From the NCBI GenBank assembly GCA_028871795.1, contig JAGWMG010000002.1, forward strand, positions 62,001 through 126,000: a stretch of DNA of 64,000 nucleotides. Reading direction: 5' to 3'. The stretch comes from Alphaproteobacteria bacterium (GTDB lineage: Bacteria; Pseudomonadota; Alphaproteobacteria; Micropepsales; Micropepsaceae). A program made the position numbers and the translations under genes. The notes under the pieces were generated by a model that worked only from the letters and a program-made list of their open reading frames with translations, was not told the DNA's origin and searched no databases. Below are positions 208 to 10,435 of the stretch, piece by piece. Positions within the stretch are counted from its first letter, which is position 1; each line of letters opens with the position of its first letter.

Positions 208-1974
208 ATGCGGCTGTTTGGAAAAAAGCCACAAGGCACTCAACAACAGATTTCTGATCCGGGTTCTTCGATCTATCTCGGGCGCTATCTCGACCTAACG
301 AACAAAACATCCGGCACCGAACTCAGCTATGACGGCGAACGTCATTTGCTGCTGTTCGGCCCGAACGGTTCGGGCAAAGGCACGCGCCTTCTCGTCTCGA
401 ACCTCCTTCGCCTCAGGGACCGATCGGTCGTCGTGATCGATCCCAAGGGCGAGCTGACGGCCATCACCGCCGACTATCGCCGCAGCATTGGCGATGTCGT
501 TGTTCTCAATCCTTTCGATGTGCTCGATCTCGGCGGCTCGGGCTTTAATCCCCTGGCCTCCCTTGATCCTGATGTACCGACCTTTGTCGATGACGCGGCC
601 GGCATCGGCGAAGCGCTCATCAAGATCGAAGACAAAGACCCGCACTGGTCGGAGAGTGCGCAAAGTCTCCTTGTCGCTCTCATCATGTGGGAAGTGCAGG
701 AAGCGAAGCGTGAAGGCCGCACGCCCCTGCTCGAAAACGTCCGGCGCATGCTGACGGAGCCGAACGAATACGAGCGCGACGAAGACGGTAAGAACAAACT
801 CGTGAAGGGCCTTCGCTTCACGGCGGCGAAGATGGCTGCAATGGGCGGATTCGAGATCGAAAGTCTCGTCGGGCGCTTTCTGCGCGACAGCGATGAGATT
901 GCGAGCATTCAATCGACGGCGGACCGCCAGACGAACTGGATGCTGTCGCCACTTATGCGCGCCAACATGGCGAAGAATGATATCGACTTCGCCGATCTCA
1001 AGAAGCGCCCGATTACGGTCTATCTGATCCTGCCTGCCGAACGCATGCGGACGCATAGCGTCTGGCTCCGTCTCGTGATCGTTTCGGCCCTTCGCGCGCT
1101 CTACAAGCCCGGCGGGGTTCGCGCGCTCTTTATGCTTGATGAATTCGCGCAGCTCGGCCATCTCGCCCCCATCGAAGACGCCTTCGGCCTCGTGCGTGGC
1201 TACGGCGTCCAGCTATGGCCGGTTCTGCAAGACCTCAACCAGCTCAAGGCGCTCTACAAAGACCGCTGGGAAACCTTCGTCGGCAACGCGGGCGTCGTTC
1301 AGGGCTTCGCGCCGAACGATCTTACGACAGCGGAATGGATGAGCCGCCGTGCGGGCGAAACGACGGTTGCCGCCGCTGCGTACAACAGGGGCGACGCTCA
1401 ATCGAGCGCGGGTCACGGCTCGATGAGCCAGAGTTCGGGCCTTAGCTACAGCCAGGCCCGCCGTCCCCTCTTCCTCCCGCAAGAACTGATGGATTTCCGC
1501 GAAGGTTCGGGACTTCTGTGGCCCGCCGGCACGTCGAAGAGCGTGCCGTTCCTTGCACCGTCCTACTGGCAAGTGCCCGAACTGCAATCGCGCGCACAAA
1601 ATAATCCCTACTACCAATCCGCAACCACACCGCCTGCGCGCGCGCAGGTGCCAGCCCCCGCATCAGGCCGCACAAACAAACTCGTGACTGGCGCGCAAGC
1701 CATCGCAATCAAGTCGGCCCCGCACATAAAGCGCGGCGCGGCCTGGGCGGCGACGAACACAGTGAAGGTTGCGCGTTGGGCGGCGGAGACCGCCGCGCGC
1801 GAGTTGCCGCCGCTGATGCGCAGACTGCAAGCGTTCGCATTGCAGTGCGCCCGCGTCATACGCGACCAGTTTAATAAGTCCCGTCAAACTTCACCAAGAC
1901 TCGAACCACTGGCTGAACATGAAAAACTCGGCCCGCCGGTCGAGGCGGGCCGAGATGCAAGCGAGAGCGAGTGA
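208..1974 (+). CDS. Type IV secretion/conjugation coupling protein (VirD4/TraG family ATPase)
   Basis: Walker A-like GPNGSGKGT, VVVIDPKGELT, LFMLDEFAQLG and VLQDLNQLKALY, typical of TraG/VirD4. Confidence 0.93.
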   Translation: MRLFGKKPQGTQQQISDPGSSIYLGRYLDLTNKTSGTELSYDGERHLLLFGPNGSGKGTRLLVSNLLRLRDRSVVVIDPKGELTAITADYRRSIGDVVVLNPFDVLDLGGSGFNPLASLDPDVPTFVDDAAGIGEALIKIEDKDPHWSESAQSLLVALIMWEVQEAKREGRTPLLENVRRMLTEPNEYERDEDGKNKLVKGLRFTAAKMAAMGGFEIESLVGRFLRDSDEIASIQSTADRQTNWMLSPLMRANMAKNDIDFADLKKRPITVYLILPAERMRTHSVWLRLVIVSALRALYKPGGVRALFMLDEFAQLGHLAPIEDAFGLVRGYGVQLWPVLQDLNQLKALYKDRWETFVGNAGVVQGFAPNDLTTAEWMSRRAGETTVAAAAYNRGDAQSSAGHGSMSQSSGLSYSQARRPLFLPQELMDFREGSGLLWPAGTSKSVPFLAPSYWQVPELQSRAQNNPYYQSATTPPARAQVPAPASGRTNKLVTGAQAIAIKSAPHIKRGAAWAATNTVKVARWAAETAARELPPLMRRLQAFALQCARVIRDQFNKSRQTSPRLEPLAEHEKLGPPVEAGRDASESE

Positions 1975-2184: not shown

Positions 2185-2446
2185 AGTCGTTTCCTTTCGA
2201 TTGTGGGCCACGCCTTTGGCGGCCTCGATGCGGTTCGTCCGCATGCGCGGAAAAGCGGCGTGGTCAAAAGCCGGAGGCCTCGCCGTAATGGGGTTGGGTT
2301 CCCCGTTCGGTTTTGACGGAGACGCGCGCGCGTGCAGAAGAAAGCATCAACTGGGAGGCCGCATGCGTGGCTCTTGAATCGCGAAAGGAACAGAGCAACA
2401 AACGGTCTAGTACGCCAAGTCAAAATCGCTGTCATTGCGGGGAACG

Positions 2447-2941
2447 ATGAATATCAAGGGTTCGAAGGGTTCGCTCGATGACGCGGCATCCGATTTCCAC
2501 AAAGCGGTCGATCAAATGCGCCCGCTGCTGCGGTCGCTGATGAAGCAAGAGCCTATCTCGCTGGGCGAGGCTTCTTCGTTCCCTACCCTTCCCGGCGTCT
2601 ACCTAATCACTGATTCGTCCGGACATCTCTATACCGGACGATGCAAGAGCATTCGTCAGCGCATGAGGAATCACGGCGGCAATTCACCAGAAAGTTCGAC
2701 GTTCGCTTTCCGGCTCGCCTGTGAAAAACTCGGTCGCAAGGCGACGTACAAAAAGGGCGAGAGCAGAAAGGCCCTAGCGTCCAATCCTAACTTCAAAACT
2801 GCTTTTCTTGAAAACGTCGAAAGAATTCGGAAAATGAACGTGCGCTTTGTCGTTATCGAAGATGACATAACGCAACACTTGTTCGAGGTTTATGTTCATC
2901 TCGCGCTGCATACGCCCCACAACACCTTCGGGACCCATTAA
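2447..2941 (+). CDS. GIY-YIG-like nuclease domain protein
   Basis: FPTLPGVYLITDSSGHLYTGRCKSIRQRMRNHGG resembles the GIY-YIG core; ATG at 2447 preferred over upstream TTG. Confidence 0.6.
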   Translation: MNIKGSKGSLDDAASDFHKAVDQMRPLLRSLMKQEPISLGEASSFPTLPGVYLITDSSGHLYTGRCKSIRQRMRNHGGNSPESSTFAFRLACEKLGRKATYKKGESRKALASNPNFKTAFLENVERIRKMNVRFVVIEDDITQHLFEVYVHLALHTPHNTFGTH

Positions 2942-3975
2942 ACGCGGGAACGAGGTTTTTGTGTTGTGCGAAGCACCCAATTCTCGACGGTATTCTCAAT
3001 CCAGCTACATTTGTAAGCGGGACCAACTACCTCTTTTGTACGTTTGAAAGCCCCTCCGTCCGGATTCACGATTGTGACTTGCGCCTTCCCCGTACCAAGC
3101 GTTCGTGTACCATCCGGCTTGAGCTTGCCTTCGATTTGATTGTGCAGCCCACAGTGTAGGATGAACTGAGTGTGTCGATCTTCGTCGGGCATGGAGTAGC
3201 CCAGAAAATGTATCTCCTTCGCTGAGCTGAGAACATCAGTGCATTCGTTCCAGAGAGTTCGGAATATAGGTTTATCAAACCGCTTCATGTATGTGGGCGG
3301 AATGAGCAAGGGTTCATATTTTCTGCCATGCTTTGAAATTGGTGATCGCGGCACTAGGAATGCGAAGTAGGTCGTATTCGCGGCCTTATCCTGAAATATC
3401 TCGTTGCGCGTCGATGCGGTTAGGGTCGGAGCACTAAACCAGTTTAGCGAGCCGTGTGGCTTGAGAAGCACTGGCTTTGTCTTGGTCGCCGAAGAAAAAC
3501 CATAGCTTGTTGCCGACAGCTTTGAACCATACAAGAGGTGATCGAGAACGAGGTCCCAATTGAACGAGATCAGGGCGGCATTCTCTCGCTGAACCAGCTC
3601 TCGAAATTCGTCAAGCCACGCGTGACCAGCTGCACCAGATTGATAAATTTCATGAAACCACTTTTCGATGGTCACCAGAATCGACTTTCTACCATTGGCC
3701 AAGTCCTTCTGTGTGAAATTTCCGACAGCACGACGAGATGAGTCAAACATCTCCTCGTTCACAGCAATAGCGGTCAGAAGATTCTCGATGTTGGGGAACG
3801 AATCGACATTGGCGGGCTGGAATGAAGGATGATGAAACTGGACAATTCGTCCCAAGCGATCTCTGTCACCGCGGTTCAGGCGTCTCCATACTTCCGGGAG
3901 AAGCTCTCGCGCTAACGGATAGCCCAGGCTTTTCGAAAACCCTGCCCCGATAATGTAGACGTGATCTCTGCTCAT
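2938..3975 (-). CDS. SIR2-like domain protein (putative NAD-binding/NADase; defense-type)
   Basis: N-terminal VYIIGAGFSKSLGYPLARELLPEVW, ALISFNWDLVLDHLLYG, VLLKPHGSLNWF, HFLGYSMPDEDRHTQF. Confidence 0.75.
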   Translation of the reverse strand: MSRDHVYIIGAGFSKSLGYPLARELLPEVWRRLNRGDRDRLGRIVQFHHPSFQPANVDSFPNIENLLTAIAVNEEMFDSSRRAVGNFTQKDLANGRKSILVTIEKWFHEIYQSGAAGHAWLDEFRELVQRENAALISFNWDLVLDHLLYGSKLSATSYGFSSATKTKPVLLKPHGSLNWFSAPTLTASTRNEIFQDKAANTTYFAFLVPRSPISKHGRKYEPLLIPPTYMKRFDKPIFRTLWNECTDVLSSAKEIHFLGYSMPDEDRHTQFILHCGLHNQIEGKLKPDGTRTLGTGKAQVTIVNPDGGAFKRTKEVVGPAYKCSWIENTVENWVLRTTQKPRSRV

Positions 3976-4215: not shown

Positions 4216-4392
4216 ATGCGAGCCTATTCTTTGACTGAACTATTCTGCCTCACCCGAGCTGAACTGTTCGCACTTCATGGAGGTATCACTGCCGAATTAC
4301 CGACGCTTGGCGGTTCTGACCGCGCAGTCGCCCTGGATAACCTTCGCAAGCTGTGCCGCGTGCTTACACATTCGCAAACGGTCCCGCGTTAA
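4216..4392 (+). CDS. Small hypothetical protein, 58 aa
   Basis: MRAYSLTELFCLTRAELFALHGG... with GAAGGAG RBS upstream; convergent with the SRAP gene. Confidence 0.5.
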   Translation: MRAYSLTELFCLTRAELFALHGGITAELPTLGGSDRAVALDNLRKLCRVLTHSQTVPR

Positions 4393-5045
4393 GGAGGCCG
4401 CGACCGGATGACCAGCATCTCGTTCGGAAGCGGGCGTTGCAGGTGCAAGCTCGCTTCCCCGCCTTCAAGCCATTCAGTCTGCTCGGCGGGATCGATGAGA
4501 ATGACCGGCATCGCTTTTTCGTGGACCGGACGGACGACATCGTTCGCCTCGGTCGTGAGAAACGAATAAAGCGACCAGTCGCGTTCCTCGCGCACGCGTC
4601 GCTTTTGTCCCGGCTGCTCGGCAAGGCGTTCGCCGCGCCAGGACCGCCAGACCCCCGCGAAGCACGCTACCTCATGACCTGGGACAAGGAACCATTTGGA
4701 ATTGATGACGGGTTCGGCGAACGCGGTGAAGGGAACGAGACACCGATATTCGCGCGCGACAATCCATTCGCGGTTCACCTGCGACCACCATTTGCTCTTC
4801 AAATGACGGATGTTGGTGATGGGAGCTTTCTGTCCCGGTATCGGTGGAAAGCCCCAGCGTGCCATTGTCAATTCCAACGAACCATTCGCTGCGTTCCGCA
4901 AGATAGGCGCGTTCTGATCTGGATAGACGTTGTCCAGCGGCGCGAGATTGTCGGTCGCCGGGGTGGTGCGGAGAGTCCGATTAATCGCGCGCACGATCGC
5001 GCGGAGCTGCGTAACCGAGCCGTGATTTTCGTAGCGATTGCACAT
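4389..5045 (-). CDS. SOS response-associated peptidase (SRAP/HMCES/YedK family)
   Basis: Starts MCNRYE with Cys2; TMARWGFPP, YRCLVPFTAFAEPV, HEKAMPVIL motifs. Confidence 0.9.
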   Translation of the reverse strand: MCNRYENHGSVTQLRAIVRAINRTLRTTPATDNLAPLDNVYPDQNAPILRNAANGSLELTMARWGFPPIPGQKAPITNIRHLKSKWWSQVNREWIVAREYRCLVPFTAFAEPVINSKWFLVPGHEVACFAGVWRSWRGERLAEQPGQKRRVREERDWSLYSFLTTEANDVVRPVHEKAMPVILIDPAEQTEWLEGGEASLHLQRPLPNEMLVIRSRPP

Positions 5046-5126: not shown

Positions 5127-6380
5127 ATGCGGAAGCCGGAGACCATCGAAAAACTGTATCTCGATTTCGATGGGTTTTTCGCTTCTGTGATGCAGCAGGC
5201 CATGCCTCACTTGAGAGGTCGGCCTGTCGGCGTCATCCCGTTCGAGACTTCCGCCGCGAATTCCACGGTTGTGATCGCCTGCTCCAAGGAAGCCAAGGCC
5301 GCTGGCTGCAAGAATGTCATGCGCGTGCCGGACGCGCGGGTCATTTGCCCGGACATCATTCTTGTGACGCAGCGGCCTGATCTGTTCCGCCGAGCGCACA
5401 ACGCGCTTCTCAATGAAATTTCGTGCGAGATTCCGATTGAGACGGTGAAGTCTATCGACGAACTCGCCTGCAAGCTCGACAGGCACAACATCGCAGAACC
5501 CAACGCACTTGCGCAAAGGATCAAGAGCCGCATCCGGCACAACATCGGCGAGCAAATTACCTGCTCGATTGGATTCGCCGCCAATCGCTTGCTCGCCAAG
5601 ATCGCGTGCAAGGTGGACAAGCCGAACGGCGTGACCATCTGGCCGCCCCCGGATATGCCGATGCCCCTGCTCGCGTTGCCGCTCGAAGACATTCCGGGCG
5701 TCGGCAAGAGGATGGAAGAGCGACTTAACCAAGCTCGAATCCACACGATGGCTGATCTCTGGAACAGTCAGCCGAAGCAGCTGCGGGCACTCTGGAAAAA
5801 TGTAAACGGAGAACGCATGTGGTATGCGCTTCACGGTTACGATATTCAGGCCATGCCGACATCGCGCGGGATGTTTGGACATGGCCGCGTATTACCGCCT
5901 CAATGGCGCGATCCCAAACACAGCCTGTCATGCTCGCGCCTTTTGCTCACCAAAGCCGCGCGACGCATGCGGCGCGATGGATTTTACGCGAACAGACTGT
6001 GGCTCTGGCTCGATATTCGCAATGGCGGCTGGTTTGGCCAACGTGAGATGCCTTGCGTCCAGGACGACCACGCTTGCCTCGCAGCGCTCGCCGCTCTCTG
6101 GGACAAGGCCCTTGCCGCAATCCCGAAGCGCGCGGAAATCGTGCGCGTCGGCGTCACGCTTCTCGATCTGTCGCCCGCAAATGCACGCCAGCTCGATTTG
6201 CTGGAAAACGACGACGGCGAGCGCCAGAAGTGCGAGCTGATAACCAACACTATCGACGGGCTGAACCGGAAATTCGGAAAGAGGGTCGTGACACTCGGCG
6301 CATGGACGCCGCCGCCGGGCGGCTATGCAGGCGGCAAGATTGCCTACAACCGGATTCCTTCGGCGGAGGACTTCTGGTGA
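5127..6380 (+). CDS. Y-family DNA polymerase (DinB/UmuC-like translesion polymerase)
   Basis: LYLDFDGFFASV, VKSIDELACKL catalytic SxDE, ITCSIGFAANRLLAKIACKVDKPNG, LEDIPGVGKRMEERL helix-hairpin-helix. Confidence 0.9.
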   Translation: MRKPETIEKLYLDFDGFFASVMQQAMPHLRGRPVGVIPFETSAANSTVVIACSKEAKAAGCKNVMRVPDARVICPDIILVTQRPDLFRRAHNALLNEISCEIPIETVKSIDELACKLDRHNIAEPNALAQRIKSRIRHNIGEQITCSIGFAANRLLAKIACKVDKPNGVTIWPPPDMPMPLLALPLEDIPGVGKRMEERLNQARIHTMADLWNSQPKQLRALWKNVNGERMWYALHGYDIQAMPTSRGMFGHGRVLPPQWRDPKHSLSCSRLLLTKAARRMRRDGFYANRLWLWLDIRNGGWFGQREMPCVQDDHACLAALAALWDKALAAIPKRAEIVRVGVTLLDLSPANARQLDLLENDDGERQKCELITNTIDGLNRKFGKRVVTLGAWTPPPGGYAGGKIAYNRIPSAEDFW

Positions 6381-6631: not shown

Positions 6632-6742
6632 GTTAGCGTTCGTATCTCTATGCAAATGGGCCGCAACATTTAAGGGATTCAAATCAGGAAGCGGTTGGAC
6701 TATCTTGTCAAACTTCAAGCTTTGTCGTGCGAAAGAGTTGAG

Positions 6743-7537
6743 ATGGCAGAGACGCAAATCGAATGGACTGACGCGACGTGGAATCCGGTCGCCGGATGTT
6801 CAATCGTGAGCGCGGGCTGCACGAACTGCTACGCCATGGAAATGGCACGGCGTCTGCAAGCAATGAATGTCAAAAAGTATAAAGGGCTTACACGTCGTAG
6901 CGGAAAGCGCACGATCTGGAATGGCATTGTGCGCGAGGATCACAGCGCGTTGCAAATACCTCTGAGCTGGAAAAAGCCAAAGAAAATCTTCGTCAATTCT
7001 ATGAGCGACCTATTTCACGAGGAAGTAAGCAACGCCTTCATCGAGGCGGTCTGGGGAATAATGCGAGCTACGCCGCATCATCACTATCAAATTCTCACAA
7101 AGCGGCCGGAACGCATGAGCGAGCTGGTCCGAGATAGAATCGGTGAGGTTCTGCCGAATGTTTGGCTCGGGACAAGCGTCGAGAACAGCGCCGTGACCGG
7201 GCGTGTCGATGAATTGCGAACGGTTCCTGCTGCGATCCGGTTTGTTTCGTTCGAACCTCTGATCGGCCCAGTCGGTAACGTTGATCTCTCAGAGATAGAT
7301 TGGGCCATAGTAGGTGGCGAAAGCGGAAGATCAGCTCGACCTATACGCGAGGAATGGATTGATGAGATTTACGACCAATGCTCGCGCTTCGATACGGCGT
7401 TCTTCTTCAAGCAGTGGGGAACTTGGGGTAAAGACAATAAGCGCCGTTCAAAGAAAGCGAATGGCCGCGTCTATCGCGGCAGAGTCTGGGACGAAATGCC
7501 AGCGTCCTTGCAAGGTTCTATGGTTGAAGCCGAATAG
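6743..7537 (+). CDS. DUF5131/phage Gp37-Gp68 family protein (three-Cys-motif protein)
   Basis: MAETQIEWTDATWNPVAGCSIVSAGCTNCYA..., FVNSMSDLFHEEV, QILTKRPERM, WLGTSVEN, IVGGESG, FFFKQWGTWG. Confidence 0.9.
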   Translation: MAETQIEWTDATWNPVAGCSIVSAGCTNCYAMEMARRLQAMNVKKYKGLTRRSGKRTIWNGIVREDHSALQIPLSWKKPKKIFVNSMSDLFHEEVSNAFIEAVWGIMRATPHHHYQILTKRPERMSELVRDRIGEVLPNVWLGTSVENSAVTGRVDELRTVPAAIRFVSFEPLIGPVGNVDLSEIDWAIVGGESGRSARPIREEWIDEIYDQCSRFDTAFFFKQWGTWGKDNKRRSKKANGRVYRGRVWDEMPASLQGSMVEAE

Positions 7538-7551
7538 GTTGCGAGCACCGT

Positions 7552-8808
7552 ATGGTAGAAAAATCATATGCGTGGGCCGACGGCGCGAGACTCGAAGAAC
7601 ACACCAAACGGAAGCACAAAATTTTGCGCGAATATTTCGCGCGTTACCTTGCCGTCCGGTGCCAGTATCCGCAGCAATCCCGGTTCCGCCTGGCTGTCAT
7701 TGACGGATTTGCTGGCGCAGGTCGTTATGCGTGCGGTACTGCCGGTTCTCCCCTCATATTCATCGAAGTGCTTCGCGCGGCGGTCGAGCAATTCAACATA
7801 CGGCGCTCAGCTGAAGGAATGTCGCCAATCGATATTGAGTGCCTGCTCGTCTTAAATGATTTGGATGCAACAGCAATTAGCTTACTGAAATCCCACATAG
7901 AGCCTCAGCGGGCGCTCATCACGTCAGAAGTCCCGAGGTTTCACCTTCATGTGGAGTACAGAAACACAGAATTCGAGACGTTGTATCCAGAGATTAAATC
8001 GCTATTGGATCGCGGGCGGTATCGCAGCGTCATATTCAGTCTTGATCAATGCGGCCACAGTCACGTGCATACCGCTACAATCCGTGACATCATGGGTTCG
8101 TTTCCATCCGCAGAAATCTTCTACACGTTTGCGATTCAATCACTGCTTGCCTTTCTAGCAAGGTCGGACCCGCAGCTACTCAAATCACAGCCAAACCACC
8201 TCGGAGTAGGCCCTGATGATCTGCGCCCTCTCGAAGGAATGATGAACAATCAGGCGTGGTTGGGAACAGCAGAGAAGATGGTGTTTGAAGCGTTCCGCGC
8301 CTGCGCACCATTTGTGAGTCCGTTTTCGATTCACAATCCCGAGGGGTGGCGCTACTGGTTTATACATTTCGCCAACTCATACCGGGCACGCCAGGAATAT
8401 AATAATGTCTTGCACCAAAACAGCAGCATGCAAGCACATTTTGGGCGTTCGGGATTGAATATGCTTTCATTTAATCCGGTTCAGGGCGGCGCGCTTTATC
8501 TGTTCGATGTGTCCGGTCGCAGTCAGGCAAAGGAACAGTTGATGGAGGATATTCCGCGGCTAGTTACTGAGTTTGGCGATACGCTAGGTGTGGGTGAGTT
8601 CTACGAGACGATCTACAAAATGACACCCGCGCATATGGATGATGTTCATTCCGCGATTATTGATAATCCGGATATGGAGGTCATTACAGAAAACGGAGGC
8701 GAGCGGCGCAAGGCGACAACAATTTCGCCGACAGATATCTTGCGTATGAAGCAGCAACGTAGCTTCTTTCCGCTCTTTCTCGGCCCCGAGACGGGCACAC
8801 GAAAATAG
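7552..8808 (+). CDS. tcmP: Three-Cys-motif partner protein TcmP
   Basis: KRKHKILREYFARYLAV...AVIDGFAGAGRYACGTAGSPLIFIEVL; adjacent to its expected Gp37/68-family partner. Confidence 0.85.
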   Translation: MVEKSYAWADGARLEEHTKRKHKILREYFARYLAVRCQYPQQSRFRLAVIDGFAGAGRYACGTAGSPLIFIEVLRAAVEQFNIRRSAEGMSPIDIECLLVLNDLDATAISLLKSHIEPQRALITSEVPRFHLHVEYRNTEFETLYPEIKSLLDRGRYRSVIFSLDQCGHSHVHTATIRDIMGSFPSAEIFYTFAIQSLLAFLARSDPQLLKSQPNHLGVGPDDLRPLEGMMNNQAWLGTAEKMVFEAFRACAPFVSPFSIHNPEGWRYWFIHFANSYRARQEYNNVLHQNSSMQAHFGRSGLNMLSFNPVQGGALYLFDVSGRSQAKEQLMEDIPRLVTEFGDTLGVGEFYETIYKMTPAHMDDVHSAIIDNPDMEVITENGGERRKATTISPTDILRMKQQRSFFPLFLGPETGTRK

Positions 8809-8836: not shown

Positions 8837-8923
8837 TGGTGCCCGAGGTCGGACTTGAACCGACATGCCCTTGCGGGCGCTGGATTTTGAGTCCAGTGCG
8901 TCTACCAGTTCCACCACTCGGGC
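8837..8923 (-). tRNA. tRNA-Leu(CAA), complete, CCA encoded
   Basis: GCCCGAG...CTCGGGC acceptor, ACTCAAAAT anticodon loop, long variable arm, GGTTCAAGTCC T-loop, terminal CCA. Confidence 0.95.
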
Positions 8924-8964
8924 AGCGGGATACCTATAGCGAGGGAGATGGCGTTCGCCAAGAA

Positions 8965-10284
8965 TTATTGGCGGGTCTTCGGGTACCCTCTGTTTTTCCC
9001 CGCCGGGATGCGTTTCGCGTTCGCTTTTCGCTTTTGGGGGACACCGTTCGGTTTCACCCTTCTGACATTGACTGCTGCCGCATCGATCATGTTCTTGATG
9101 TGAGCGGCATAGAATTTCTCGATCATTTCGACACTGGTGCGGCAGTTCTTCGCGATCTGATAGATGTCGGCTCCTTCCATGAGCCGGAGACAGATATACG
9201 TGTGGCGGAGGGAATAAGCGGACCGGCGCAAGCCCTCGCGGTCCTTCTTTAAGCCCTGCTCTTCCAGTACGGCGTTCAGGTGGTGATGGCGTAGACCTGG
9301 AAACAGCCTGTCGGTTGGTTTCGGAAGGGACAGTTCTTCCGAGTCATCCGTTCCGCCCTTCGATACCCGGCTTTCGGCTTTGGCCAGACGCTTGCGCTGG
9401 CGCAGCCGTTCGAAGGGCATCACGGCTCCGGGCATGCTCTTGCAGTAACCGACCCCTCTTTTGCCGCGCACGCTGATTTCAAGAATGGTTTCGTTGGTTG
9501 CTGTGTCTTCGACAATTTCAACGTCCCGGAACTCAAGCCGTGCGGCTTCGTCCGGGCGAAGTCCGGTGTTCACCATGAACAGGACGAAGTCGTGCAACTG
9601 TTCGCACTCCCATTTCCAACGTGCGTTGGGTGGGTTCTCCGCGCGTTCGCGCGTGGCTGTATAAAGCCGTTTGTATTCTTCGGGAGAGAACCAGGCACGA
9701 TGACTGATTTTGCCTGATGCTTTGTATGGAGCTGAAAGGTTCGGAACGAATTTCAGCCACCCTTGCCGTTCCGCAGTTTTGAGAACATGGCGAAGGGTAA
9801 CGATTTCATGGTGGATGGTGCTTCGCGCTGGGCGAAGCGGCTCACCTGTTTTCGGATTGGTTTTCGAGGTCATCCGGTGCACCCGGTAGTCCTGCACCAT
9901 TTGGGGAGTGATGTCGGTGACCGGCTTGTCCCCGAAGAAGGGGAGCAGGTGAACCCGCAGCCGGTCGCCGTGACCCTTGACGTATTTCGGACTGCGCTCT
10001 CCCGCCGTTAGCGCCTCGTATTCGGGGAGGAACTTGTCGGCGGCGTCCTTGAACTTCTTGCCGCCGCGCAGCTCGCCCGATCGGTGCTTGAGCTGGAGGG
10101 AGAGATACCAGTCTTCGGCCTTCTTCTTCGCGTGTTCGAGATCGTGCTCTTTGGTCGTCGTGCGGTGATTGCGGGACGCGAGGTAAGTCGAGCACTGCCA
10201 ATAACCGCTGTTCTCTCGTTTGTAGAGATGCAGCTTTCCACCAATCATGTCGTGCGTGACAGCGGCAGTCATACGCGTATGCAT
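8965..10284 (-). CDS. Tyrosine recombinase/integrase of the mobile element
   Basis: NTGLRPDEAARLEF, YSLRHTYICLRLMEGADIYQIAKNCRTSVEMIEKFYAAHI; adjacent to tRNA and tRNA fragment. Confidence 0.93.
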   Translation of the reverse strand: MHTRMTAAVTHDMIGGKLHLYKRENSGYWQCSTYLASRNHRTTTKEHDLEHAKKKAEDWYLSLQLKHRSGELRGGKKFKDAADKFLPEYEALTAGERSPKYVKGHGDRLRVHLLPFFGDKPVTDITPQMVQDYRVHRMTSKTNPKTGEPLRPARSTIHHEIVTLRHVLKTAERQGWLKFVPNLSAPYKASGKISHRAWFSPEEYKRLYTATRERAENPPNARWKWECEQLHDFVLFMVNTGLRPDEAARLEFRDVEIVEDTATNETILEISVRGKRGVGYCKSMPGAVMPFERLRQRKRLAKAESRVSKGGTDDSEELSLPKPTDRLFPGLRHHHLNAVLEEQGLKKDREGLRRSAYSLRHTYICLRLMEGADIYQIAKNCRTSVEMIEKFYAAHIKNMIDAAAVNVRRVKPNGVPQKRKANAKRIPAGKNRGYPKTRQ

Positions 10285-10312
10285 ACGCGAAACGCGTTAA
10301 AAAGTCTATAAC

Positions 10313-10331
10313 TGTGTAAGGGTTGTGTAAG
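10313..10331. repeat. Direct repeat TGTGTAAG x2 (11 bp period), candidate integrase/accessory-factor arm sites
   Basis: TGTGTAAG at 10313-10320 and 10324-10331 in the AT-rich segment between int and the tRNA fragment. Confidence 0.4.
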
Positions 10332-10397
10332 TTTTTGATATTGCTTATGTTATTGTATTTATTGACTATTTTGATGTTTTTATCGGGTTATTTTGGC

Positions 10398-10435
10398 TTT
10401 TGAGTCTGCCGCGTCTACCATTCCGCCACAGGGGC
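10398..10435 (-). pseudogene. Truncated 5' half of a tRNA-Leu(CAA) gene; likely element/chromosome junction
   Basis: Minus strand GCCCCTGTGGCGGAATGGTAGACGCGGCAGACTCAAAA, then unrelated AT-rich sequence instead of the 3' half. Confidence 0.85.

Follow-up and report, generated by a model that had tools for sequence, protein, structure and literature searches.

How does a host keep a tRNA whose gene has been split by a mobile element? In the 64,000-nucleotide stretch of DNA analysed here (the window, G000:C1:62001-126000, where G000:C1 is the contig that contains it), the minus strand at 10435-10398 reads GCCCCTGTGGCGGAATGGTAGACGCGGCAGACTCAAAA, the 5' half of a tRNA-Leu ending just after the anticodon loop (...GGCAGACTCAAAA), and then leaves the tRNA sequence for AT-rich DNA. 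ARAGORN finds an intact tRNA-Leu(CAA), with CCA encoded, on the same strand at 8837-8923 (54.7 bits with the Rfam tRNA model), about 40 bp after the stop codon of an integrase gene. The original prediction read this as a destructive insertion compensated by a cargo replacement tRNA; the observation is confirmed and the interpretation is supported.

The displaced half and the intact site

The missing 3' half (TCTGTTGCC...CCAGGGGCACCA) lies outside the window, at G000:C1:52646 onwards (-), preceded by ACGCGGCAGACTCAAAA; the same 17 bp lie at window 10398-10414 (-), forming the att core at the right junction, with the second copy at G000:C1:52690-52706. One core copy plus the DNA up to the next is 19,708 bp, with 55% G+C against 63% for the contig part read. 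Joining the two flanks gives a canonical 86-nt tRNA-Leu(CAA), while ARAGORN finds no functional tRNA at either junction, i.e. neither end restores the gene. The original prediction held that the broken and carried tRNAs share little beyond two short blocks; in fact they are about 76% identical over 88 nt, although still clearly different genes.

Among 42 tRNA hits in the genome, the leucine set is UAA, UAG, GAG, CAG and the island's CAA, and no second host tRNA-Leu(CAA) was found; the assembly is 95.6% complete in 22 contigs, so this absence is strong but not final. In the family, 56 of 60 genomes match the rebuilt site somewhere, and 14 loci checked hold an intact tRNA-Leu(CAA) of the host type, in relatives without the element. 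In two of these, one from a single-contig genome, bioD stands directly upstream as in the window.

The best explanation, to which we assign a probability of roughly 0.92, is that a 19.7-kb integrative mobilizable element entered the single tRNA-Leu(CAA) gene by tyrosine-integrase recombination at the anticodon loop. Its attP shares only 17 bp with the gene, so the insertion splits the tRNA and restores neither half, and the host keeps CAA-tRNA function because the element carries a complete tRNA-Leu(CAA) just behind the integrase. We infer that this integrase makes the cut, that the carried tRNA is transcribed and charged, and that the host tRNA promoter now reads through int into it, since the 5' half, int and the replacement share one orientation. 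The CAA tRNA may nevertheless be dispensable, as tRNA-Leu(UAA) could also read UUG by wobble; the case for necessity is stronger for related elements that hit tRNA-Leu(UAA), which is expected to be the only reader of UUA.

Gene content of the island

The tyrosine integrase (8965..10284, -, 439 aa) matches PF14659, and its relatives conserve a SLRHTY block and a TGLRPDE block. Two CTTACACA repeats at 10313..10331 (-) are candidates for arm-type integrase sites; a third copy lies near the left end of the element, and similar repeats are found upstream of int in relatives. A VirD4/TraG-like coupling protein (208..1974, +, PF02534) is encoded within the window, and a MobA/VirD2-type relaxase (PF03432) further left at G000:C1:59516-60784 (-). 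The cargo looks defensive: a SIR2-like protein (2938..3975, -; PADLOC SIR2 models, E about 5e-7) is a candidate defence gene, as is the three-Cys-motif partner protein TcmP (7552..8808, +; NCBIfam TIGR04474, PADLOC PDC-M30A), whose neighbour is a DUF5131 protein (6695..7537, +; PF07505, PADLOC PDC-M41B/M30B). An MmeI-type restriction-methylation enzyme with a helicase and a T5orf172 protein occupies G000:C1:53249-59132, and similar-looking proteins, read by eye, stand in the elements of two other genomes (G391 and G387). Also present are a Y-family DNA polymerase (5127..6380, +, PF00817), an SRAP (SOS response-associated) protein (4389..5045, -, PF02586) and a GIY-YIG domain protein (2435..2941, +, PF01541). 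No phage structural gene was recognised among the proteins searched, nor any conjugation gene beyond the relaxase and coupling protein, although small ORFs were not all searched. We call the island an integrative mobilizable element, with transfer inferred.

Related integrases, carried tRNAs and introns

A class-level search found related integrases in 22 of 385 genomes, and a scan of 84,980 species genomes returned the best 80 loci (loci in general are numbered L below, and genomes G), from Alphaproteobacteria, Gammaproteobacteria, Acidobacteria, Verrucomicrobia, Planctomycetes and others by record title. Most show the same plan: a tRNA-Leu 5' half cut at the anticodon loop just upstream of int, and a complete tRNA-Leu downstream. 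Where both could be scored, the anticodons of broken and carried tRNA agree in 64 of 64 pairs; one of these, L119, has a broken half that now reads UAA and was assigned to CAA by judgement from the rest of its sequence, and some labels were set by hand after reading the sequences. Target type changes several times on the integrase tree, with the carried tRNA following, but only five independent pairs are well supported (all consistent, p 0.06), too few for significance. A carried tRNA lies within 2.7 kb in 60 of 65 members with a broken target, but in only 1 of 12 members that rebuild their target (fMet, Arg-ACG; Fisher p 7e-9, relatedness ignored). Of the five exceptions, L094 has a copy 10 kb away and L057 an intron-bearing tRNA gene about 2 kb away; L095, L141 and L156 have a broken target with no replacement found nearby, that of L156 being the 5' half of a tRNA-Arg(CCT). 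L113 uses the same plan on tRNA-Tyr, and at L249 (G413:C14) an integrase only 35% identical also accompanies a broken tRNA-Leu(CAA) and a carried copy, so the strategy reaches beyond this clade. At L099, L100, L116, L139 and L152 the att core lies between non-tRNA sequences on both sides while a complete tRNA-Leu follows int; these look like unintegrated forms, some on contigs of hundreds of kb, perhaps large plasmids or phages. Among plasmid hits of the integrase, no tRNA was near in the two checked.

The displaced 3' half was found beside the core in 11 further genomes, giving elements of 6 to 47 kb, including Bradyrhizobium sp. CCGUVB4N on one 9.2-Mb contig. In the UAA members examined, no intact intronless tRNA-Leu(UAA) was found elsewhere in the genome by pattern search. 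Twenty-one distinct carried CAA tRNAs form every one of 482 stem pairs, with 91 cells changed on both sides, and no shuffle reached the observed values, which points to selection as tRNAs. Carried UAA genes share few acceptor arms (6 in 30) where their targets have many (24 in 30), so they appear to travel with the element.

Carried UAA genes hold a group I intron of 204-281 bp in the anticodon loop, exactly in the att core. Five introns of the family pass the Rfam gathering score, two of them in CAA genes, and three more match the group I model more weakly; G precedes the 3' exon in 27 of 27. Spliced in silico, all 27 complete cases rebuild positions 30-38 of the target, while among 31 intronless pairs only 3 keep that 9-mer (p about 1.6e-13, relatedness ignored), the other 28 carrying base changes. 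Two CAA genes with introns (L079, L081) and two intronless UAA genes with changed cores (L139, L152) cut across the anticodon divide. We read both features as possibly protecting the replacement from its own integrase: with an intron, the recognition site would be absent from the DNA and reappear only in the RNA. We consider this about as likely as not; it does not explain the window, L117 and L155, whose carried genes keep the 9-mer. The window's copy has only a changed anticodon stem; it nearly matches the host tRNA of another lineage, G397, and may have been picked up there.

Two remnants in the window's own genus suggest that replacements can outlive the integrase and become permanent host genes. 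In G004 (L243, G004:C1) a broken CAA half stands 18 bp from a complete carried-type gene, with no integrase match in the 20 kb read. In G140 (L275, G140:C5) a broken UAA half is followed by an intron-bearing tRNA-Leu(UAA), the displaced half lies 15 kb on, and no match to this integrase was found. If the protection idea holds, some stand-alone tRNA-Leu(UAA) introns of Alphaproteobacteria would be relics of such islands, as G140 suggests.

Alternative explanations and known systems

The alternative that survives best, and remains quite possible though somewhat less favoured, concerns only the introns: they may be ordinary selfish elements that prefer tRNA anticodon loops, their place in the att core being coincidence. 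Group I introns are long known in tRNA-Leu(UAA) of cyanobacteria, and nearly all those found in 30 genomes of this class (loci L256-L285) sit in tRNA genes (Leu, Arg and others), mostly without this integrase within the 1.5 kb looked at. Against this stand the contrast between intron-bearing and intronless copies and the cases that cross the anticodon divide. It is unlikely that the insertion broke a dispensable tRNA and that the carried tRNA is a chance passenger, such as a translation booster or a copy that resists anticodon nucleases. Phages carry tRNAs for such reasons, possible wobble reading of UUG would allow it, and a few members have no replacement nearby; but the anticodon agreement across switches of target, the near absence of carried tRNAs in members that restore their target, and the lack of another intact intronless tRNA-Leu(UAA) in the UAA members examined all speak against it. 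An assembly or binning artefact can be all but dismissed despite the 22-contig assembly, since both junctions lie inside one 328-kb contig and the same arrangement is in isolates and single-contig genomes.

These results suggest that breaking and replacing a host tRNA gene is a strategy of non-phage islands found across several bacterial phyla, not only of phages. Tools that look for restored tRNA genes would be expected to miss such islands. The protection idea offers a testable reason for group I introns in bacterial tRNA anticodon loops, and the islands a route by which host tRNA genes are replaced by foreign ones. Such an island would also be addictive, in that losing its tRNA while it is integrated would cost the host that function.

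The principle itself is not new. Guerrero-Bustamante and Hatfull described tRNA-dependent lysogeny of actinobacteriophages in 2024, with experiments (PMC10865867), and phage Gaia even uses tRNA-Leu(CAA) with its copy downstream of int. As in that system, integration here uses a short core and rebuilds no tRNA, and the element carries the tRNA. The carrier here, however, is a mobilizable island with relaxase and coupling protein rather than a temperate phage, and a tblastn search with its integrase gave only weak hits in 50,697 phage records (below 26% identity in the rows listed). Introns and core changes in replacement genes were not found in the parts of that paper that we read, and in open-access text we found no report of such replacement in mobilizable islands, nor of introns in the replacement gene. 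In Sinorhizobium meliloti, two prophages like Mesorhizobium phage Lo5R7ANS in tRNA-Leu(UAG) likewise replace a broken tRNA-Leu with a prophage-borne tRNA-Leu of foreign origin (PMC11476347, 2024), the carrier there being a prophage rather than an island. Classical tDNA islands (Islander, PMC4383910) share the use of a tyrosine integrase at the anticodon-loop site of a tRNA gene, but those restore a functional tRNA at one junction and this one does not. The tRNA-Leu(UAA) of cyanobacteria and plastids bears a group I intron in the anticodon loop, as seen in relatives of the window element, where the intron sits instead in an element-borne replacement gene.
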